Origin: a virus
Length of the DNA stretch: 62,966 bases
IMG/VR virus record: IMGVR_UViG_3300033143_001983
Coordinates: 1 to 62,966 of that record
Direction: 5' to 3' (one strand)
Position numbers and translations under genes: made by a program. Position 1 is the stretch's first letter. The number at the start of each line of letters is the position of its first letter. The notes below the pieces were generated by a model, which saw nothing but the letters and a program-made list of their open reading frames with translations, did no database searches and had not been told where the DNA came from. Of the stretch, positions 2,798-48,748 are shown piece after piece.

Positions 2798-3115
2798 ATG
2801 AAAAAATTAATTGAAGCAACTCCATTACTATTGTTACTATCACTAGTACCTTTCCTTTTCTACAGTCAGCCTAATATTGCCCAATCGGTTATATTGTCGG
2901 CAATTGCTGGATTATTCGGATTTACTGTATACTTAGAAAGTCTTAAAAAACCTGACTATGTTAAAATCTTCACAGAAAGGTTAGACGAAAGAGATCTTGA
3001 AAATGACAAGAAGCTTAATATCTTATTAAAAGAGATCGAGGAACTAAGAGCTACTCAGGGTAAATTAAATATTGTAAAAAAGACTGAAGATAGAATTAAA
3101 AACTATAAATGGTAG
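2798..3115 (+). CDS. Small membrane protein with C-terminal coiled coil, 105 aa
   Basis: Residues about 8-25 and 31-49 form two hydrophobic helices (LLLLLSLVPFLFY; VILSAIAGLFGFTVYL). They are followed by about 55 charged residues with heptad-like spacing (KLNILLKEIEELRATQGKL). This topology resembles phage holin-partner or inner-membrane lysis proteins. The position in the late operon ahead of the terminase fits a lysis role, but no family match can be claimed. Confidence 0.6.
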   Translation: MKKLIEATPLLLLLSLVPFLFYSQPNIAQSVILSAIAGLFGFTVYLESLKKPDYVKIFTERLDERDLENDKKLNILLKEIEELRATQGKLNIVKKTEDRIKNYKW

Positions 3116-3280: not shown

Positions 3281-3626
3281 CTTTGATTTAGGAGAAGCTG
3301 GAAAAGAACTTGAAGCTCTTCAAAAGCGCATAGCAGAACTTGAAGTCGAGAATAGTCGCCTCAAGCATGTTATTGTAGAAAATGAACTAGAAGAAGAAAT
3401 CGAAGGTATTGACTGTACGAGCATTGAAGAGGTTATATGTACACAGGGTATTCGTTACATAGGAAGTTTAGTTGAAGCTCAGGACTTTGATAAATCTGAT
3501 ATACAAAACTTCGACACCCTTTACAAGACTCTAAGGACCATAAGAGGATTGACTACTCCATCTACTAAGAAAAACAAAGTAACTAACGTATCTGAATTAC
3601 TTAAAATAGTAGGAAAAGGCGAGTAA
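3267..3626 (+). CDS. Candidate small terminase subunit (coiled-coil protein, 119 aa)
   Basis: Residues about 10-45 form a leucine-heptad coiled coil (ELEALQKRIAELEVENSRL). A globular middle and a basic C-terminal tail (PSTKKNKVTNV) follow. Size, coiled coil and position one gene before TerL fit a terminase small subunit, which recognises the packaging site and assembles as a ring. I see no diagnostic helix-turn-helix, so this is a contextual call. Confidence 0.4.
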   Translation: MMNDNFDLGEAGKELEALQKRIAELEVENSRLKHVIVENELEEEIEGIDCTSIEEVICTQGIRYIGSLVEAQDFDKSDIQNFDTLYKTLRTIRGLTTPSTKKNKVTNVSELLKIVGKGE

Positions 3627-4222
3627 TGGGTTACAACAAAGATTATTATCAAAAAAATAAGGAGGCTATCTTAAAAAAACAAAGAGATTATTATAAGAAT
3701 AATAAAGAAAAGGTAATAAAAAGACAAACAGAAAGGTACAATAAAGACAAAGATAATATTTTAGAGATTCAAAAAAAGTATCAATCTAAAAATAAAGAAA
3801 AAATAGCTGCATATAATAAGAAATATAACGAAGAGAATAAAGATTTAATAAGATCTAAGAAAAAAGAATATGATAAAAATAGAAAAGAAGCGAAAACTGC
3901 ATACTCCAAAAAATATTATAAAGAAAATAAAGAAAAGATAAATAAAAAACACAAAAAATACGATAAGAATAATAGGGATAAATGTAACGCTAGAGCTGCT
4001 AAAAGAAGAGCCTCTAAGATAAAAGCCACTCCTGATTGGGCTGATAAAACAAAAATACAAGTGTTATACGAAAAAGCTAAATGGCTAGAGTCGCTAACCG
4101 GATTAATTTATCATGTTGATCATATAATTCCCTTAAAAGGAGAAAACGTATGTGGACTTCATATCTGGGAAAATTTACAAATACTAGAAGCATCTTTGAA
4201 TTGTTCAAAAGGCAATAAATAA
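3626..4222 (+). CDS. HNH endonuclease with Lys/Asn repeat N-terminus
   Basis: Residues about 1-130 are a low-complexity array of roughly 12-14-residue units (Y-x-K-N-K-E-x-I). The C-terminal 60 residues carry an HNH core (HVDHIIPLKG, then NLQILEASLNCSKGNK), a form common in phage HNH proteins. HNH genes next to terminases can be homing endonucleases or packaging co-factors that nick DNA. Start and stop overlap both neighbours, so the gene is integrated into the late operon. The repeats are very AT-rich and may be a DNA-binding extension. Confidence 0.8.
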   Translation: MGYNKDYYQKNKEAILKKQRDYYKNNKEKVIKRQTERYNKDKDNILEIQKKYQSKNKEKIAAYNKKYNEENKDLIRSKKKEYDKNRKEAKTAYSKKYYKENKEKINKKHKKYDKNNRDKCNARAAKRRASKIKATPDWADKTKIQVLYEKAKWLESLTGLIYHVDHIIPLKGENVCGLHIWENLQILEASLNCSKGNK

Positions 4223-40986: not shown

Positions 40987-41383
40987 TTTTTAACCCCATC
41001 ATTTCTATATCGGCTACTTCGCCCATTATTTCAGCACATACTTCATATGCTTTTTTTATTTGATTAAAATCATCTTTAAATCCATCTAATCCGCATCTAT
41101 GTAACATAGGTAGTTCATGATATTCGTAATTACAGCATCCATCCCACTTTATATACCCACTTATTTTAGGGAGGGTATTTTCAGAATGCTCATGATCGTT
41201 TTGATTGCCATAATCCTCTAAGTCGTAGTAAGAAGGGTAGTCTTTCTCTCCAGTTTTTCCGTTGTAACTTACCCAACTAATATCATATATTTTAAAATCT
41301 ACTGAGTACGTTTTTCCATCACTAGGTTTCCAATTAAAATGATAGGCTGATAATGAGTCCCTATCTACTATTACCTTATTCAT
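40979..41383 (-). CDS. Hypothetical protein, 134 aa
   Basis: Unrecognised acidic protein with a Trp/Tyr-rich beta-like N-terminal half (HFNWKPSDGKTYSVDFKIYD) and a helical C-terminus. GGAAG precedes the ATG, which overlaps the HNH gene stop. Confidence 0.6.
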   Translation of the reverse strand: MNKVIVDRDSLSAYHFNWKPSDGKTYSVDFKIYDISWVSYNGKTGEKDYPSYYDLEDYGNQNDHEHSENTLPKISGYIKWDGCCNYEYHELPMLHRCGLDGFKDDFNQIKKAYEVCAEIMGEVADIEMMGLKNE

Positions 41384-41802
41384 TATTTCTTCCTTTTTAA
41401 ACTGCCAGATTCTTTTCTTTCTCCAGCTTCTTTTGCACTTTTATCTGCATGACAATCTCTGCAAATTCCTTGATAACCTTCTGGACCGCAATATAGACGC
41501 TCTATATAAGTATTCCAATCTGCGTATCCGATCTTTACGTCTACAACGGGGATTTTATGATCCAATTCGAGTTTTCCTCGAATAAGCTCTTTTCCGACAG
41601 ACTTCCAGTTCTCTTTCATTTCCTCATATCGCTTATCAGATACTCCCTCATATATTAATATGCTGCAAGATTCACACTTATAAGTTGCCACATCTGCCTT
41701 ACACCTAGCCTTAGCTTTAGTACGTTGTTTATCGTGCATATGAATACGTCTAAGCGCATTTTTAATCTTTGCAACTGGTACATATGATTTCTTCTTAGAC
41801 AT
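41383..41802 (-). CDS. HNH endonuclease-like protein with zinc ligands, 139 aa
   Basis: A compact HNH/ββα-metal nuclease. YKCESCS supplies a first CxxC, ELDHKIPV carries the His-x-Pro region of the active site, and a second CRDCH follows at the end of the fold. The N- and C-terminal extensions are basic. It belongs to the Cys4-HNH type found in many phages as a nicking or recombination nuclease, not to the NUMOD homing type encoded nearby. Confidence 0.8.
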   Translation of the reverse strand: MSKKKSYVPVAKIKNALRRIHMHDKQRTKAKARCKADVATYKCESCSILIYEGVSDKRYEEMKENWKSVGKELIRGKLELDHKIPVVDVKIGYADWNTYIERLYCGPEGYQGICRDCHADKSAKEAGERKESGSLKRKK

Positions 41803-42142
41803 CTATCCTCTTCTTTTTATATCCGCAATGACAACTTTCAAGTACTCCAAATAGTGTTTTCATCACTTTTAGATCCTCGCTGCCACAACTAGGACATATT
41901 TTACCATCTCTAACTTCTTTCAGCGTCTTATTCTCTTTTGCCGCCTCAATAAGATCTTCTACTGATAAATCCTCGGTGCTTCCTTTCAAGAAATTTGCAT
42001 TTCCTACAAGTGCTGCTTCTGCGGTATTTAATTTACTTATCAATATTCTTTTATCTTTCTCTAATCTTTTAATTTTGTTTCTAAGTTTTTGGACTTCTCC
42101 AGATTTAGCTTCTTTCACGATACTGCCTTTTTTCGACTTCAT
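41795..42142 (-). CDS. Coiled-coil protein with C-terminal zinc ribbon, 115 aa
   Basis: Residues about 10-60 form a heptad coiled coil (KLRNKIKRLEKDKRILISKL). Residues about 85-110 contain CPSCGSED ... CHCG, a zinc ribbon. The start has TAGGAG upstream. A host-type promoter lies directly in front. Coiled coil plus ribbon suggests a DNA/RNA-binding regulator. Confidence 0.6.
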   Translation of the reverse strand: MKSKKGSIVKEAKSGEVQKLRNKIKRLEKDKRILISKLNTAEAALVGNANFLKGSTEDLSVEDLIEAAKENKTLKEVRDGKICPSCGSEDLKVMKTLFGVLESCHCGYKKKRIDV

Positions 42143-42153
42143 TGAACTCCTAC

Positions 42154-42182
42154 AGTTTATCAGCTTCGTATTATTTAGTCAA
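42154..42182 (-). promoter_or_regulatory. Host-type promoter candidate at the 3' end of an HNH gene
   Basis: TTGACT, 17 bases, TAAACT. It lies between the HNH ORF stop and the next gene. The same design is found after the second NUMOD4-HNH gene at 45890-45918. Confidence 0.5.
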
Positions 42183-42190
42183 CATATTCT

Positions 42191-42715
42191 TCATACATGT
42201 TTCCATGTTACTCTTTTTGTTATCTTTGTTATATTAGAAGTATTTGTTTGAAACATATCTGCTATTTCATAATTTTTTAAATTACTAGATTTGTGTAATT
42301 TTCGTATCTCCAGCACATCTTTTTCTGATAACTTAGACATTCCATGTGAGATTCCTTTTGTAGGGTCTTTCAGATTATTATCATATGAATGTTTTATATT
42401 ATACATACAATCACACCACTCTAAATTAGTAAAGTGATTGTTTAATTTATTACCGTCTATATGATTTACTTGATCTAGATTATTGTCATTTTCTATAAAA
42501 GACTCCGCTACTAACCTGTGTACTTTTTTGCTTTTAGTTAAGATAGATACTCTAGGATATCCAGCAGACAATGATTGAGATAAGCTCTTTCCTTTATAAA
42601 ATCTTAAAGTACCATCATTAAGCATTACAGTTCTATCTAGTCTTTTAACATTACCTAAATTACTTACTTCATAAATACCCTCATATCCGACCACACTTGC
42701 CCACTCTTCAGTCAT
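42191..42715 (-). CDS. NUMOD4-HNH homing endonuclease
   Basis: Residues 1-30 match the NUMOD4 motif (EEWASVVGYEGIYEVSNLGN). The HNH core lies at about 83-101 (VNHIDGNKLNNHFTNLEWC), and a C-terminal DNA-binding motif of NUMOD/HTH type follows (SEKDVLEIRKLHKS). The length of 174 is typical. The paralogue at 45925 shares the architecture and the final TWKH ending. The gene sits after the MazZ-like gene and is followed by a promoter. It is a mobile element that cleaves unoccupied alleles. Confidence 0.9.
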   Translation of the reverse strand: MTEEWASVVGYEGIYEVSNLGNVKRLDRTVMLNDGTLRFYKGKSLSQSLSAGYPRVSILTKSKKVHRLVAESFIENDNNLDQVNHIDGNKLNNHFTNLEWCDCMYNIKHSYDNNLKDPTKGISHGMSKLSEKDVLEIRKLHKSSNLKNYEIADMFQTNTSNITKITKRVTWKHV

Positions 42716-42717
42716 TT

Positions 42718-43305
42718 TTAATCCTTTTTTAAAACAGTACGATCATCTATACCTTTATCACTGTTTTCGTATGTATGGAGAAACATTAAGTTAGCAGATG
42801 CTAGTGCCAAATGTTCAAGTCCTGATTCAGGGTCAATATTTTCACCGCTTATAAAAGCGTTCAGATGTCTTTGTAGTGAATCATATATCGTACTGTAGTG
42901 AAAACCATCACCTTTTAAATAGTTCTGGATATCGCCTCTCTGCTCGTCATACTTAGTGTACCCGTATGTCAAAGCTTCTGCAAGTGCTAGTTGAAATTCT
43001 GGACGAATTAATGACATCATTGGTTTATCTGTGTTGTATTTCTTAGGTTCTTCTCTAGGAGGCGTATCGAATGATTTAATCGCTGTCGCTACTATCTTCT
43101 GAGAAACTTTTACAAAAGTATCTTCAACTAGCCCTAATTCAGATCCTTGAACAGTCCATTGTTTTTCTGGAAAATTAACTAAAAGTTCCTGACCACCATC
43201 TTCGTACTCATCCTCTATTATCTCTACTGTTCCTAGTGATCCTTTTTCTATACCGGAAAAGTCATTAACATATTCCACTTTATCGCCTACTTTAAACTTA
43301 CTCAT
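42718..43305 (-). CDS. MazZ-like (DUF5664) dATP/dGTP pyrophosphohydrolase with N-terminal SH3-like domain
   Basis: I choose the ATG at 43305, with GGAG 6 bases upstream, rather than the upstream in-frame codon at 43326. The N-terminal about 65 residues are KOW/SH3-like (FKVGDKVEYVNDF). The C-terminal about 100 residues match the all-alpha MazG-like family of phage dNTP pyrophosphohydrolases: KPMMSLIRPEFQLALAEAL, then SLQRHLNAFISGE and DPESGLEHLALASANLMFL. It would hydrolyse dATP/dGTP-type nucleotides to monophosphates. No purZ or datZ is visible. Confidence 0.75.
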   Translation of the reverse strand: MSKFKVGDKVEYVNDFSGIEKGSLGTVEIIEDEYEDGGQELLVNFPEKQWTVQGSELGLVEDTFVKVSQKIVATAIKSFDTPPREEPKKYNTDKPMMSLIRPEFQLALAEALTYGYTKYDEQRGDIQNYLKGDGFHYSTIYDSLQRHLNAFISGENIDPESGLEHLALASANLMFLHTYENSDKGIDDRTVLKKD

Positions 43306-43645
43306 TATTATCTCCAAATTTATCAACCATAAAGTAATGCACTCTAAAATAAAGCTTTAGTAATATATTAGGGTGATACCTTCGCAATCTAGGATTATTG
43401 ACCATCATCTGATTATTGAACTGCTTAAAAGCTTTTCTTCTTCTCCACCAGCTTTTTATCTTGACGTTAGTTTCTAAAGTCACTAGCACTTTATCTTCAT
43501 GCTTAAATGCAACAAGAGATTTAGTTATATCATTAGTATCTACAACTTTTACGAACTCAACTTTAGTTCCTACCGGAATAAGATTACCATCTTCTTCCTT
43601 GCCAATTGGCTCTACTACTATAAGTATTTCGTTTTCTAGGTACAT
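43298..43645 (-). CDS. Hypothetical basic protein, 115 aa
   Basis: GGAGG lies 5 bases before the ATG encoding MYLENEILIVVEP, so the ATG at 43645 is preferred over an earlier in-frame codon; it overlaps the preceding stop (TAATG). The protein has a beta-rich first half and a basic second half (KSWWRRRKAFKQFN). Function is not recognised. Confidence 0.55.
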   Translation of the reverse strand: MYLENEILIVVEPIGKEEDGNLIPVGTKVEFVKVVDTNDITKSLVAFKHEDKVLVTLETNVKIKSWWRRRKAFKQFNNQMMVNNPRLRRYHPNILLKLYFRVHYFMVDKFGDNNE

Positions 43646-43872
43646 TATTCCTCCGATTCCCAACTATGGTAGGATTCAAACTCTCCAGATGGAGTCATAA
43701 ACTGTCTCATAACATGTTGTTCTTTATAATCAACCTTTCTACTTGGAGGCAACATTCCCTCTTTCTCAACCTCATCTAATAGATCGTTAATTAAAGGCTC
43801 AGCGTCTGTCATTAACATCGTTCTAAATGGATGTAGATTTCCTATAATAGATAGCATTTTACTACGCTTCAT
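43645..43872 (-). CDS. Small phage protein with GMLPP / WESEE motif, 75 aa
   Basis: Contains KEGMLPPSRKV and ends HSWESEE. A related protein at 46684-46893 has KGMLPPEYTK and NEWESEDD, so the phage encodes two paralogues of a small family. Both are followed by proteins of unknown function. The conserved Pro-rich turn and C-terminal W-E-x-E suggest a protein-protein adaptor. Confidence 0.65.
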   Translation of the reverse strand: MKRSKMLSIIGNLHPFRTMLMTDAEPLINDLLDEVEKEGMLPPSRKVDYKEQHVMRQFMTPSGEFESYHSWESEE

Positions 43873-44146
43873 CTAATACCTCATCTCTAGTTTCGATAAT
43901 ATCTTTCTCTTCTTGAACTAGAAGATCTAGAGCTTTTCTCTTATTAATGCTTGGAGCAAAATGTCTGAGCGTCTTTTCGTCCAGATCTAATCCACCGTTA
44001 GCTTCATTAGATTTCTCTTTATATACTTCAAAGATCTTGTCATTATGCGCCACTAGGATCTCATCAAGAATCTTTCTTCCATCTTTAGATAGTGGGATAT
44101 TCTTAGTTTTGTCATTAGTCTCTTTACCTGTTACTATACATTTCAT
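43862..44146 (-). CDS. Hypothetical helical protein, 94 aa
   Basis: AGGAG precedes the ATG. The protein begins MKCIVTGKETNDKTKNIPLS, a short Cys-containing start, and continues as helices with mixed charge. No zinc pair or domain is recognised. It overlaps the paralogue gene downstream. Confidence 0.6.
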   Translation of the reverse strand: MKCIVTGKETNDKTKNIPLSKDGRKILDEILVAHNDKIFEVYKEKSNEANGGLDLDEKTLRHFAPSINKRKALDLLVQEEKDIIETRDEVLDEA

Positions 44147-44156
44147 TGTATTTCTC

Positions 44157-44867
44157 CTATTTCAGTCCTAATATAAGTTTATACTTTTTTGCCAATCTAT
44201 TCAACCTATTTCTTAGTTTTGGTATTTTTTTAAGGTTAAAATTCTTTATATCGTCAGTGAAAGTTTCAAAAAAGTAGTCGTGGTCAGCTCCCATGTAAGC
44301 ATGACACTCGTCATCAAGTACATCATCAGCATATCCCCAAGACGATAAACAAGCTCTAACTTGTTTTAATTCTTTTTTGTAATCCCCAACTGCTTTCAGA
44401 ACCTCTTTTTTATAATCTGCGCTAATGCCAAACATAGCGTGTCTTATCTCATGCTCTAGAGTATCTTCTGGATCATTCTCACCATAAGTTGCTATCACAT
44501 AAAAAGAATCACTTCTATACTTGAGAGCTTCTACTATATCATGCTCAAAGTCTGTTAGAGGGTCAAATAGCCCCTTTACGAATGGCTCTAGTACTGTGTC
44601 TGGGAAATTATAACCGTCCCAATCTGCACTTAAGGTCTTTCCGCCACAGTATAAATTTATACCTTTATTAGCCCTACTTCCTAAAGACTTTAAATACCCT
44701 GTGGTGAAAATCTGACCTTTAATCTCAGGAAATGGACTTTCATAATATTCTTGGAACCTCATCATAGCAGAAGCTAGTGTGTTTTTGTCTGACATTACTA
44801 TGTGAACTATACTAGTTCCTATATTAGATATTTTTAATATACCTTTACTTTCTAGGTTTTTTCTCAT
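44157..44867 (-). CDS. HExxH-type metallopeptidase-like protein, 236 aa
   Basis: The sequence LEHEIRHAMFG places H139, E140 and H143 in an HExxH zinc motif, and DDECHAYM about 45 residues later supplies an acidic third-ligand candidate (E187). This spacing fits a gluzincin-like protein. No signal peptide or membrane segment is seen, so it would act in the cytoplasm or in virion assembly. The remainder is not recognised. Peptidase function is inferred from the motif alone. Confidence 0.5.
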   Translation of the reverse strand: MRKNLESKGILKISNIGTSIVHIVMSDKNTLASAMMRFQEYYESPFPEIKGQIFTTGYLKSLGSRANKGINLYCGGKTLSADWDGYNFPDTVLEPFVKGLFDPLTDFEHDIVEALKYRSDSFYVIATYGENDPEDTLEHEIRHAMFGISADYKKEVLKAVGDYKKELKQVRACLSSWGYADDVLDDECHAYMGADHDYFFETFTDDIKNFNLKKIPKLRNRLNRLAKKYKLILGLK

Positions 44868-44870
44868 TAA

Positions 44871-45824
44871 TTACCTCGGATTTTTTCTAAATTTCTTTCT
44901 CTTAGCACCTTTTAGTAAGTTATCTGTATCTCTGTACTCTGCGCCACAATTCGTACATTTGTACTTCTGAAACTTTGAAGCATTTGTGAAGTAGAATCCA
45001 CTCTTTTTAAAGTCGGTACTTCCACAGCTACATACATCTTCATCAAAATATATTGAGAAGTTAATTGAATCATCCCAAGGAATTAGAATTTCGTATAATT
45101 CTTCCAGAGATAAAACGTCTAATTTATTATAATCTTCCATTTCTTGAAAAGCTTCAACATTACCCTTCATACACTCTGACCATAATTTAAATCCCGGAAA
45201 CTTAGCATGACCTGACTTCTTATATTTCGTACATAACTTGTCCGTCATATATTCTAACTTATTACTAGTGAAGCTGAAGTGTCTCTTAGCAATTAGAAGT
45301 GTGTCGATTTGTCTGAATGAACTTGGCGGTTTCATCCCATGCATAATGAATCTTGCATTAAGCTTTTTAACGTCAAACTTCTTAGAGTTTTGCCCAATTA
45401 CGATATCTGCGGCATCTAGAAGCTTCCAGATACTCTTTAAAATCTTCTTATCATCCTCAAAGTCTTTTGCATCTCTTTGATCTTCATATAATACTTCGTC
45501 GCTATCATACCATTTTGCTGCCCAACTAAGAACGTGCCAATCTTTTTCGATCATATTTAAACCAACATTATTATCCCATAACTTCCATACAGAAGCAATA
45601 ATAGGTACTGTCTCGATATCAAAGAACAAGATGTTTGGAGCGTCTTTTCTTTTATTGATAGAAATGACAGGTATCTTATATCTTTCAAAAGTTTTTCTCA
45701 CAGCATTTGGAGAGTGTTTAGTACCAAACCTATGATTAATTCTAGCAGCAATCTGATCATATGTGTAATCGTCATACAGCTCTAATAACATGTCAATTTG
45801 TGCTTGACTCCATTTTTTACTCAT
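44871..45824 (-). CDS. HTH and RNase H-fold 3'-5' exonuclease with zinc ribbon
   Basis: I select the ATG at 45824 (GGAG 7 bases upstream) over an upstream TTG in the same frame. An N-terminal HTH/SANT-like segment (KWSQAQIDMLLELYDDYTYDQ) precedes a DEDD exonuclease domain. That domain has FDIETV (Exo I), GQNSKKFDVKKL (Exo II) and YNKLDVLSLEELY (Exo III). A terminal ribbon CSCGS ... CTNCG follows. This layout resembles YprB-like (PF13482) nucleases. Confidence 0.75.
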   Translation of the reverse strand: MSKKWSQAQIDMLLELYDDYTYDQIAARINHRFGTKHSPNAVRKTFERYKIPVISINKRKDAPNILFFDIETVPIIASVWKLWDNNVGLNMIEKDWHVLSWAAKWYDSDEVLYEDQRDAKDFEDDKKILKSIWKLLDAADIVIGQNSKKFDVKKLNARFIMHGMKPPSSFRQIDTLLIAKRHFSFTSNKLEYMTDKLCTKYKKSGHAKFPGFKLWSECMKGNVEAFQEMEDYNKLDVLSLEELYEILIPWDDSINFSIYFDEDVCSCGSTDFKKSGFYFTNASKFQKYKCTNCGAEYRDTDNLLKGAKRKKFRKNPR

Positions 45825-45837
45825 CGTAACTCCATTG

Positions 45838-45876
45838 TTAACTTTTGCTTTGGATTTCAAGACCTATGCCGAATCC
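45838..45876 (-). pseudogene. Displaced C-terminal end of the 46455-46691 gene
   Basis: The twelve in-frame codons GFGIGLEIQSKS plus stop are identical in protein sequence to the end of the intact gene upstream of the HNH gene. Eight of the twelve codons differ, all synonymously. The reading frame is interrupted upstream by a stop. The element lies between the HNH cassette and the exonuclease gene, consistent with a gene 3' end cut off by cassette insertion. Confidence 0.7.
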
Positions 45877-45889
45877 ACAGCTATACTTA

Positions 45890-45918
45890 ATATTAATCTA
45901 AATAATTTATATTGTCAA
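45890..45918 (-). promoter_or_regulatory. Strong host-type promoter at the 3' end of the second HNH cassette
   Basis: TTGACA, 17 bases, TAATAT. Together with the 42154 copy it forms a conserved cassette tail (TGGAAACAT..TAT, a short gap, then ATGTTGAC). It would restore transcription of the exonuclease and distal genes after the insertion. Confidence 0.6.
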
Positions 45919-45924
45919 CATAAT

Positions 45925-46455
45925 TTATATATGTTTCCAAGTTTTTCTTAGTTTTATATTACTTACTGCTTGTCTAGTTATATTGTAATCCTTTGCTATT
46001 ACTGTTCCGTTTTCTCCACTTTCTAATCTCTTTCTTATGTATATTATATCATCTTTTTTAAGGTTAGTTTTTCCGCTACATTCCCCTTTGGCAGTATAAA
46101 CTCCTATAAAATGAGCATGTTGTATATTTTCTTTATGAGTACACCATTCTAAATTAGATACGTGGTTATTTTGTTTATTTAAATCTTTATGATTAACAAA
46201 ATACTTTCCTTTTATTTTTGATAAAAACGCCCTAGCTACTAAAATATGTACTCTTATTGTGTGTTTTTTATGATGCTTGCTCAGATATACGCAAGGGTAT
46301 CCAGTATTCAGAGGTGTTTTTAGAATTTTTCCTTTGTAGTTATATACTTTAGAATCTTTTCCTAGAACCGTTCTATCTAGGCTTTTAACTCTACCTTTAT
46401 TACTAACCTGATAAAATCCTTCAAAACCTTCGATATCTTTCCAGATCTCTTTCAT
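45925..46455 (-). CDS. NUMOD4-HNH homing endonuclease
   Basis: The gene starts in TAATG overlap with the 78-aa gene. NUMOD4 lies at residues 1-30 (KDIEGFEGFYQVSNKG) and the HNH core at about 86-105 (FVNHKDLNKQNNHVSNLEWC). The C-terminal HTH (EVIAKDYNITRQAVSN type; here AKDYNITRQAVSNIKLR) ends in TWKHI. Length and architecture match the 42191 paralogue. It is a mobile endonuclease likely inserted near the 3' end of the preceding gene. Confidence 0.9.
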   Translation of the reverse strand: MKEIWKDIEGFEGFYQVSNKGRVKSLDRTVLGKDSKVYNYKGKILKTPLNTGYPCVYLSKHHKKHTIRVHILVARAFLSKIKGKYFVNHKDLNKQNNHVSNLEWCTHKENIQHAHFIGVYTAKGECSGKTNLKKDDIIYIRKRLESGENGTVIAKDYNITRQAVSNIKLRKTWKHI

Positions 46456-46691
46456 TATGATTTACTCTGTATCTCTAGACCTATTCCAAATCCTAAGATT
46501 CTAAAAGCCATATTAAAGTAAATGTTATTTGTTACGATTAATATTTTTGTTGGAAAACTCAACATATATGATTTATGCTCATTTCCAAACATATTTATAG
46601 TTTTGCTCCTGTTAATCTCAGGGAACGTCATATAAAGACGGTAGTAATACCCTCTATTAGCGTAATCTCCACCAGATATAAGATTAATCAT
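46455..46691 (-). CDS. Hypothetical protein, 78 aa (3' end recoded)
   Basis: A small beta-rich protein (YYYRLYMTFPEINRSKTINM) with a hydrophobic C-terminal half (FNMAFRILGFGIGLEIQ). No family is recognised. Its last 12 codons have a synonymously different duplicate downstream of the HNH ORF. The intact copy is probably the cassette-supplied version. Function is unknown. Confidence 0.6.
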   Translation of the reverse strand: MINLISGGDYANRGYYYRLYMTFPEINRSKTINMFGNEHKSYMLSFPTKILIVTNNIYFNMAFRILGFGIGLEIQSKS

Positions 46692-46893
46692 CTTCCGACT
46701 CCCATTCGTTCAATCGCTCATATCCAGATGATACTTCGGGTATTGCAAATGTCCTTTTTGTATACTCTGGAGGTAACATTCCTTTATCTACTAGAAAAGC
46801 AAGCAATTTATCAGCTACATATGGCTCTAAATATCCACCATCATAGTATTTGACAAATTCTACCACATCCTTTACTAAATCACTTTTTTTCAT
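46684..46893 (-). CDS. Small phage protein with GMLPP / WESEDD motif, 69 aa
   Basis: Paralogue of the 43645 gene: KGMLPPEYTKRTF and the C-terminal NEWESEDD are shared, and the rest is diverged. It is coupled by overlap to both sides. Function is unknown; see the other copy. Confidence 0.65.
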   Translation of the reverse strand: MKKSDLVKDVVEFVKYYDGGYLEPYVADKLLAFLVDKGMLPPEYTKRTFAIPEVSSGYERLNEWESEDD

Positions 46894-47152
46894 TTCCCAC
46901 CATCTTTCCTAGAGCCAATGCTTTATAATACCTAGCTTCTTCATATAACTTTCTAGCTCGTTTATGTGCGTCGATAAGTGAAAGAAGGGTATTGATCTTA
47001 TCTTTTCTTAGAATAAGCTGTGATTGATATAACGCCCTTAATTCATTAGGTCTTTTATCTTTTGTTAATATCCTTTTATAGAACTTTTGAGAAGATTCTA
47101 AATCCTTAAGACGCTTCACAGCTTCATCGTAACTTAGTAATTTATTATTCAT
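46880..47152 (-). CDS. Coiled-coil protein, 90 aa
   Basis: Entirely helical and charged (EAVKRLKDLESSQKFYKRIL; DAHKRARKLYEEARYY), with no other features. GGAGA precedes the ATG. It is probably an oligomerising adaptor, but the partner is unknown. Confidence 0.6.
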   Translation of the reverse strand: MNNKLLSYDEAVKRLKDLESSQKFYKRILTKDKRPNELRALYQSQLILRKDKINTLLSLIDAHKRARKLYEEARYYKALALGKMVGNEKK

Positions 47153-47827
47153 TTAAATCTCCACTACTATAGGTTCATTTGTCGGGTCATATTGCTCTGT
47201 GCAAATTGCAGCATTTACAAAAGTTGTATCTACTATTTTATCAATTCCATGCCAATTATGAATGTGTCCGAATATATGATATTTAGGACTAATATCCAGT
47301 ACTCTGTTTAAAAGATGCTTACATCCACAATTTTCCATACTATAAATAGAAACATCCATTACACCGCTTGGGGGTCCATGAGTTATAATAACATCTGTAT
47401 CGTCAGGAATCATATCCCAATAAGGTTGAATCGGATCGTATTTTTCTTCTAAATGATGATAAGAAGTTCCGCAATCTCCAGAATCCCTATTCCATGCCCA
47501 ATTATGAAATCTAGGAGTAACCCCACTTCCCCAGAACTTAATTCCGCCAAGAGTTATTCCAGTATTATTTAGGTAGATTATATTTCTAGCAGCACATTCT
47601 TGCTTTACTAGATCCTCATTCTGCTCAGTAATCATATCGTGATTCCCCGGCACATATATAATATGAAGGTATTTTGCTCTTAGTTTGTCAAGTTCATTTA
47701 CGAATTTCATAAATTCTGTTAAAGTGCCTCTAGATAAAGCATCTCCAGCATGGACTAAGATATCACCATCTGGTAATTTAACCTTTCGCAAGTTACAATG
47801 TGTGTCAGAAATGCACACAATTTTCAT
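47153..47827 (-). CDS. Calcineurin-like metallophosphoesterase, 224 aa
   Basis: All metal-binding motifs of the superfamily are visible: SDTHC (D8, H10), HAGDALSRG (first GD), VPGNHDM, THGPPSG and FGHIHNWH. It resembles the YfcE/Icc-like single-domain class that hydrolyses phosphodiesters or nucleotides. No signal peptide is present, so it acts in the cytoplasm. Substrates might include cyclic nucleotides, relevant to anti-defence, or RNA ends in the repair cassette. Neither is shown by the sequence. Confidence 0.85.
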   Translation of the reverse strand: MKIVCISDTHCNLRKVKLPDGDILVHAGDALSRGTLTEFMKFVNELDKLRAKYLHIIYVPGNHDMITEQNEDLVKQECAARNIIYLNNTGITLGGIKFWGSGVTPRFHNWAWNRDSGDCGTSYHHLEEKYDPIQPYWDMIPDDTDVIITHGPPSGVMDVSIYSMENCGCKHLLNRVLDISPKYHIFGHIHNWHGIDKIVDTTFVNAAICTEQYDPTNEPIVVEI

Positions 47828-48105: not shown

Positions 48106-48407
48106 TATAAATCTCCTAGCTCAACTAGCTCATTTCCATCTACTATTGTATCGTTAATTTTATCGTAGAGTACTTTACCTTCATAACTAAAATAATTAAC
48201 AGCAACTACATCAGTTCCAGTAAACGTATATACTCCAGTTGTAGGAGCTACGAATACTTGCTCTTGTATTTTAGATAAATCTGCGTTTAACTCTCTTATC
48301 TTTTTTTCTGCTTTTTCTGCTCTGTTTATATTGTGAATCGCTGACGCAGCTAAAAAAAGCGTACAAATCGCACACATTACCATTGCTATAATTAAAAAAA
48401 TCCCCAT
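48105..48407 (-). CDS. Membrane-anchored small protein, 100 aa
   Basis: The N-terminal hydrophobic segment (GIFLIIAMVMCAICTLFLAA) is one transmembrane helix. It is followed by a coiled coil (NINRAEKAEKKIRELNADLS) and a beta-rich C-terminus. This is an inner-membrane, type-II-like topology. It stands in a block of four small envelope genes (48105-49101) that may form a lysis or membrane-remodelling set. Confidence 0.6.
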   Translation of the reverse strand: MGIFLIIAMVMCAICTLFLAASAIHNINRAEKAEKKIRELNADLSKIQEQVFVAPTTGVYTFTGTDVVAVNYFSYEGKVLYDKINDTIVDGNELVELGDL

Positions 48408-48748
48408 TACATATCTCCAATTTTTTGATTCACTTTAAATGCAAATCCTGTTACTAAAACTCCTAACACTAACATTCCTAACGCCTTCATATTGCTGTCA
48501 AACTTCGCTTCTGAGAGCTTTCTACGCTGTACCCTAGCATCTTGCTTATGAAAGTCGATAAGCTCCATCTGAGTCATTCTGAGGTCTTCTAGGACCAATG
48601 ATCGTTTCTCTGCTTTCATCGCTTTCTCAGCTCTTTCAGTAGTGAGTAATATGCCATCAAAAGGTACTTTATTTCCTTCATGTACTTTTACTGCGTTTTG
48701 TGCAAATGCGGAATTACTTAGTAAGATTAATAATAGAATTAAGCGCAT
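48407..48748 (-). CDS. Envelope protein with signal peptide and C-terminal TM, 113 aa
   Basis: Residues 1-16 form a cleavable-looking signal (MRLILLLILLSNSAFAQ). A periplasmic helical portion has KVPFDGILLTTERAEKAM, a motif I associate with small phage lysis-region proteins. Residues about 88-108 are a transmembrane helix (MKALGMLVLGVLVTGFAFKV). It overlaps the lipoprotein gene upstream by 35 bases. A spanin-like role is possible. Confidence 0.6.
   Translation of the reverse strand: MRLILLLILLSNSAFAQNAVKVHEGNKVPFDGILLTTERAEKAMKAEKRSLVLEDLRMTQMELIDFHKQDARVQRRKLSEAKFDSNMKALGMLVLGVLVTGFAFKVNQKIGDM

Follow-up and report, generated by a model that had tools for sequence, protein, structure and literature searches.

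The window, as we call the whole stretch of 62,966 nucleotides of viral DNA analysed here, carries a 78-aa gene on its minus strand, a gene for an HNH endonuclease directly after it and, beyond the nuclease, a second and detached version of the 78-aa gene's 3' end. The question raised by this locus is how one gene came to have two ends, and which of them was originally its own. The original prediction was that a homing endonuclease cassette had replaced the end of the gene with a recoded copy and pushed the native end downstream, as described for the atp6 insert of Allomyces. That parallel proves to be a real one, extending both to the arrangement and to the test by which native and foreign ends are told apart. 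Mobile ORFs in the mitochondria of Allomyces macrogynus (atp6) and Glomus sp. (atp6, atp9, cox2 and nad3) consist of an inserted C-terminus, an endonuclease ORF and the displaced native C-terminus; the native ends match a relative at 91-98% and the inserted ends at 64-81%, with the protein identical or nearly so (PMC3630166). The mitochondrial case was originally reported by Paquin and co-workers in 1994, as cited in PMC3630166, which also refers, on the subject of elements that bring coding sequence with them, to a dissertation of 1992 about phage introns.

The two gene ends and the nuclease between them

Read along the minus strand, the 78-aa gene (46455-46691; its protein beginning MINLISGG and ending GFGIGLEIQSKS) is followed by the HNH ORF (45925-46455), whose start overlaps the stop of the gene as TAATG. 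A promoter-like site, TTGACA-17-TAATAT (45890-45918), begins 6 nt past the HNH stop, and after it come the second gene end and the next gene (44871-45824, with its ATG at 45824), which encodes an RNase H-like/PolB-type exonuclease with a zinc ribbon (PF13482). The 78-aa protein itself has no match in 50,697 phage records, Pfam or PHROGs. The predicted repeat of its last 12 residues and stop was found with both copies in place. Copy A, the end attached to the gene, occupies 46493-46455 and reads GGA TTT GGA ATA GGT CTA GAG ATA CAG AGT AAA TCA TAA; copy B, at 45876-45838, reads GGA TTC GGC ATA GGT CTT GAA ATC CAA AGC AAA AGT TAA. Both encode GFGIGLEIQSKS followed by a stop, with all 12 residues identical, while 8/12 codons and 10/39 nucleotides differ, and a codon-by-codon comparison agrees with the claim that every difference is synonymous. 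One serine, TCA in A and AGT in B, is separated by more than one step. This repeat is unique in the window, being the sole case among 205 ORF ends in which at least 8 of the 12 residues recur no more than 2 kb downstream, and the pair scores 59 against a 99.9th percentile of 29 for a null of mismatched locus pairs.

Copy B lacks a start codon and is preceded by in-frame stops, so it would not be translated as the end of the gene. It runs on into a leader, TAACAATGGAGTTACGATGAGT, and the displaced end and this leader together precede the start of the exonuclease gene. The anatomy, an insertion with a displaced end beyond it, can be read from these positions. The layout is that of an Allomyces/Glomus-type mobile ORF, in which one and the same 3' gene end stands on either side of an endonuclease ORF. 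Only the HNH ORF lies between the two copies, with no integrase gene such as an e14/icd-type element would have.

The predicted 176-aa nuclease matches Pfam NUMOD4 (5.5e-19) and HNH_3 (1.7e-10) and aligns over nearly its full length with the I-HmuI structure 1u3e (E 4e-14). Residues N88 and H89, N97 and N101, together with the flanking EWC, are kept across 7 relatives; the position of D74 in I-HmuI is occupied by N and that of H75 by H. By its domains and motifs the protein is predicted to be an HNH homing endonuclease of the I-HmuI type. It shares its domain make-up and near-full-length similarity with I-HmuI and the NUMOD4-HNH endonucleases of phages, but I-HmuI is encoded within a group I intron, whereas the window enzyme is free-standing at a gene end. 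There are further HNH genes in the window. A second NUMOD4-HNH gene (42191-42715, minus strand) lies directly after another phage gene, has no repeated gene end and is followed immediately by a promoter-like TTGACT-17-TAAACT. Two more HNH-like ORFs occur at 3626-4222 (plus strand) and 41383-41802 (minus strand), one of which directly precedes the large terminase gene, whose start lies in a TAATG overlap.

The native end and a probable internal promoter

It had been proposed that related phages without the cassette should possess a single end matching the displaced copy. Scans of viral contigs found two relatives without HNH at this site, L003 (59% aa identity) and L001 (53%), each with a single end, and the comparison comes out as expected. 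At 51/61 nt the end of L003 and the bases that follow it agree with copy B plus flank, compared with 36/61 for copy A plus flank. For the end alone the contrast is modest, at 30/36 nt for B and 26/36 for A, and the flank carries much of the weight. At the 10 sites that differ between A and B, L003 agrees with B at seven and with A at three, and L001 with B at five and with A at three, in a comparison confined to two empty relatives of 53-59% aa identity and 36 nt. The leader that follows copy B has its counterpart in L003 (TAACATTGGAGTTACAATGAGT), despite the different downstream gene there. Synonymous codon identity between the 78-aa gene and L003 is 25/30 over codons 1-62 and 6/14 over codons 63-79. 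Because the end and leader of L003 match copy B, and because codon identity to L003 drops from codon 63, these data indicate that the body of the gene (itself closest to L003, at 105/153 nt) and copy B are native and that copy A is a replacement, making the 78-aa gene a hybrid.

A second insertion in the same gene is seen in L011, a third syntenic phage, which surfaced solely through its HNH and which shares the gene order 119-aa, 90-aa, phosphoesterase, 84-aa, 78-aa. Its HNH gene, 45% identical to that of the window, lies directly after the 78-aa gene. The displaced tail, LTIRSIYCNIVIKLLGFGMGLEIHSR, is about 27 codons long, reads LTIRSIYCNIVIKLLGFGMGLEIHSRRFK up to a stop and contains the internal promoter of the gene. 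Both the body of this gene (108/153 nt) and its displaced tail (59/81) are closest to L001, the attached tail reaching 54/81. Between the window and L011 the attached tails agree at 55/81 nt, about as much as is shared by the native L001 and L003, and they point to no clear single lineage.

The original prediction assigned the promoter-like site to the cassette. Its position downstream of the HNH ORF stands, but its membership of the cassette probably does not. The displaced tail of L011 starts with TTGACA, with TAACAT 17 nt later, and the intact genes of L001 and L003 have the codons TTG ACA at the same place, with TAATAT 17 nt on. The TTGACA element is present in 4/4 native or displaced copies and in 0/2 attached ends, where it is erased and ATC GTA and ATA GTT stand instead. 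Since the same element with the same spacing lies inside the intact L003 and L001 genes and in the displaced tail of L011, the site after the window HNH is probably the native internal promoter of the gene, displaced, rather than part of the cassette. Most simply read, the 78-aa gene contains the promoter of the gene that follows it, and the cassette, on entering immediately upstream of the -35 box, displaced this promoter together with the gene end. Across 200 loci, a promoter directly after the HNH stop is mildly commoner than background (9.5% against 4.9%).

The stretch of the window that runs from TTGACA to copy B (45877-45918) reads LTI*II*INIKYSC. It keeps the register of L001, L011 and L003 with one codon lost and two stops, and aligns to the native copies only slightly better than do hexamer-keeping shuffles (p 0.06-0.08). 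It is probably the decayed first half of a displaced native tail which, as in L011, would have comprised about 27 codons. An insertion point identical to that of L011 would extend the replaced part of the window gene up to about 46538 (codon 52).

The gene that follows the 78-aa gene differs in all four related phages (44871-45824 in the window, 3239-4480 in L001, 5251-7101 in L003 and 3125-3841 in L011), the products being the exonuclease, phosphoesterase-like proteins and a 616-aa protein, while the flanking genes are conserved; a variable spot therefore adjoins the insertion site. In a 113-aa gene of the window (48407-48748) and its homologues the C-terminus, TGFAFKVNQKIGD, is likewise conserved to a striking degree between phages that are 45-69% identical.

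Repeated gene ends at other HNH loci

Loci around NUMOD4-HNH genes were gathered from viral contigs, bacterial genomes and annotated phages, giving 200 distinct cassettes, and the translated left flank of each was compared with its translated right flank. Since these loci were selected by HNH, cases without HNH fall outside the scope of the scan. A first version, anchored on ORF ends at their stops, missed L011 and L224, and both were recovered by the scans of both flanks. Further host genes include a connector-like gene, an endolysin, a small HNH-like gene and a minor head gene, and there is in addition a mirror-image case involving a 5' end. Judged from these sequences, the arrangement known from fungal mitochondria is present in several unrelated phages.

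One of these cases concerns the minor head gene of L224, where the foreign origin of the attached end can be seen. The body of this gene is closest to Dulem virus 40 (L233), with 155/219 aa identical compared with 140/219 for L237, a phage gene from the same assembly as L224. With one frameshift bridged, the displaced tail, CDSMVGYHAYESELPPYHGHCRCYAVPVYL, again finds its best match in L233 (25/30 aa), whereas the attached tail, DGNCGFHSVEEGTNLPMHGHCACYAVPIYIK, aligns best with L237 (score 152, as opposed to 113). In both L233 and L237 there is no HNH after the gene. Because body and displaced tail match L233 and the attached tail matches L237, the attached end appears to be foreign and the L224 gene a hybrid. 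For end A of the window no donor was found, and it is in L224 that an attached end from another lineage is seen. Taken together, the match of L003 to copy B, the same arrangement in L011 and the division of the L224 ends by lineage bear out the prediction that an end was replaced by a recoded copy and the native end pushed downstream.

In L106 the two ends span 24 codons (CIARGITKAEYFKQCYEIMKECLL and CIAHGITKQEYYEQCYKIMKNLIL), and in L076/L077 they belong to a head-tail connector-like gene (VQFICRNLNNVS and VQFIYRNLNNLS). The weakest of the clear cases is the endolysin of L025 (LQKLVKYGFRY and LKKLQQYGFTY), whose relatives are highly diverged at the gene end. The mirror image is L189 (1801-2735), from a Patescibacteria assembly, in which MKLEKQVVSLELARRLK, the native gene start, is joined in frame to the HNH ORF, and the next gene begins with a recoded start, MKLEDQVVSLELAKKLK, in which 12/13 synonymous codons are changed. 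The nuclease stop lies within or overlaps the displaced tail in L011, L106, L224 and L025, as would be expected of an abrupt junction. No empty relative of L106, L076 or L189 was found among phages, nor one of L106 in eight genomes. Six candidates (L167, L240, L056, L183, L133 and L048) were rejected as low complexity or paralogues, and L032 and L087 were dropped with scores merely near the tail of the null. Around position 3045, L076 and L077 are identical in cassette and displaced tail and diverge within a few bases past the tail, as if recombination had used this boundary.

Nucleases with repeated ends are scattered in the HNH tree, where well-supported branches force at least three label changes, in a test that counted the second HNH of the window, which has no repeated end, as a member. 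The tree neither groups the window and L011 nucleases as sisters nor separates them.

Origin of the second end

We consider it highly probable that a homing-type HNH cassette brought a foreign gene end and displaced the native one. In an ancestor of the window phage the cassette would have entered the last third of the 78-aa gene, carrying, fused directly ahead of the HNH ORF, a 3' end that came from a homologue of that gene in a diverged phage lineage. The end brought in would restore a full-length protein, and strong protein-level constraint on the C-terminus would account for the saturation of synonymous differences. The native 3' end, the internal promoter and the leader of the next gene would have ended up beyond the nuclease gene, where the displaced stretch may still serve the downstream gene while its coding meaning decays. 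Most likely the process would begin with the native gene being cut or nicked a short way upstream of the -35 box, and we infer that the HNH enzyme did this and that this enzyme can home. The broken left end would then invade a donor copy and copy the donor end together with the HNH gene, and the new DNA would be joined to the broken right arm, which still bore the native end. Such a one-sided repair route would leave two ends, in contrast to ordinary homing, in which both sides are homologous and a single end results. With its target split and a different sequence in the attached end, the new allele would no longer offer an intact site.

Copy B may in addition have been kept for a function of its own, whether as the next gene's leader or regulatory region or as half of the nuclease target site. 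This idea is compatible with the cassette explanation, though on balance we think it rather unlikely. Copy B does lie between the promoter-like site and the start of the next gene, its leader is common to L003, and the second half of the displaced tail is intact while the first half has decayed save for the hexamers. However, the displaced tail of L224 carries a frameshift, and if the insertion is young then codon-level identity needs no function by itself.

An alternative to the cassette explanation would be passive mosaicism, in which the HNH gene and the adjoining foreign end arrived by illegitimate recombination with the nuclease a mere passenger at the boundary. HNH and other homing endonuclease genes do sit at boundaries of genetic exchange in phages, according to passages of PMC10448857, and L076 and L077 share cassette and tail up to their point of divergence. 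We nevertheless regard this as improbable, since the same anatomy is found at the same gene in two diverged phages (the window and L011) and at several other genes, with HNH always between the ends in these HNH-selected loci, and passive events would not be expected to bring one nuclease type to one position on two occasions. Local duplication, in which the phage doubled its own gene end, an HNH gene landed between the copies and the copies drifted, would also yield two ends flanking HNH. It is very improbable, however, because 8/12 codons differ with no residue changed, and a copy that is not translated, such as B, would have lost residues by the time its synonymous sites were saturated; moreover, the two ends of L224 belong to different lineages and the duplication is absent from the empty relatives. 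A group I intron or intein, with copy B as a second exon joined after splicing, might come to mind given that NUMOD-bearing HNH genes often reside in introns (I-HmuI itself does), but this is scarcely credible for a locus where the attached gene is already complete with end and stop upstream of HNH, where no Rfam intron family is matched at E<=1 in 41500-47500 (two chance snoRNA hits only), and where the displaced tail overlaps the HNH ORF in L011 and L106.

With a homing-type cassette as the preferred explanation, the mitochondrial mobile ORFs are the closest known systems. They too comprise a gene body, a foreign C-terminal end, an endonuclease ORF and a displaced native end, with the foreign end differing mostly at synonymous sites and the native end matching a relative; as this type requires, the displaced copies here match the single ends of element-less relatives in the pairs window/L003 and L224/Dulem virus 40. 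The mitochondrial enzymes, however, are LAGLIDADG or GIY-YIG, with ends of about 50-300 nt and sometimes a fused ORF, whereas the window has an HNH enzyme in a phage, a short end, a TAATG stop/start overlap and a displaced internal promoter. Prophage e14 in the icd gene of E. coli likewise supplies a substitute gene end, with 10/12 differences synonymous, and displaces the old one, but does so as a whole prophage through reversible site-specific recombination at an 11-bp repeat and not through nuclease homing (PMC4759930). Among phages, the T4 seg and mob genes resemble the window in being intron-less nuclease genes that adjoin a host gene, as described in passages of a review on free-standing phage homing endonucleases that also remarks on the danger of displacing promoters (PMC2988022). 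According to the same passages, the T4 enzymes are encoded between genes and cut hundreds to thousands of bases away, unlike the insertion within a gene end seen here (PMC2988022). Repeated gene ends are not described in the passages found of that review (PMC2988022) or of two phage HNH papers, and no phage example of nuclease-type gene-end replacement was found in the open literature, within incomplete coverage.

These loci suggest that an HNH element of a phage can insert into coding sequence and yet leave the gene whole, by supplying the missing end, and that hybrid genes and moved promoters may be the outcome. A recoded gene end repeated after a nuclease gene would be a signature that can be searched for in any genome. 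Since the displaced end marks the place of insertion, the cutting sites of uncharacterised HNH enzymes could also be guessed from it.

A broader proposal may be put forward tentatively, and we hold it to be doubtful: that these loci represent a recurrent class of phage HNH element whose mobile unit is a recoded gene end plus nuclease ORF, which replaces 3' ends or, in mirror image, 5' ends, the recoding having been selected for immunity to re-cutting and for erasure of the internal promoter, with the native promoter displaced along with the old end. Codon differences at saturation are what a distant donor gives and are by themselves no proof of selected recoding. When seven cases are pooled, 55/86 same-residue codons differ where 48.7 would be expected from independent draws on the codon usage of each locus, which is not significant (z 1.45); L106 and L189 each lie above this expectation by about two standard deviations.
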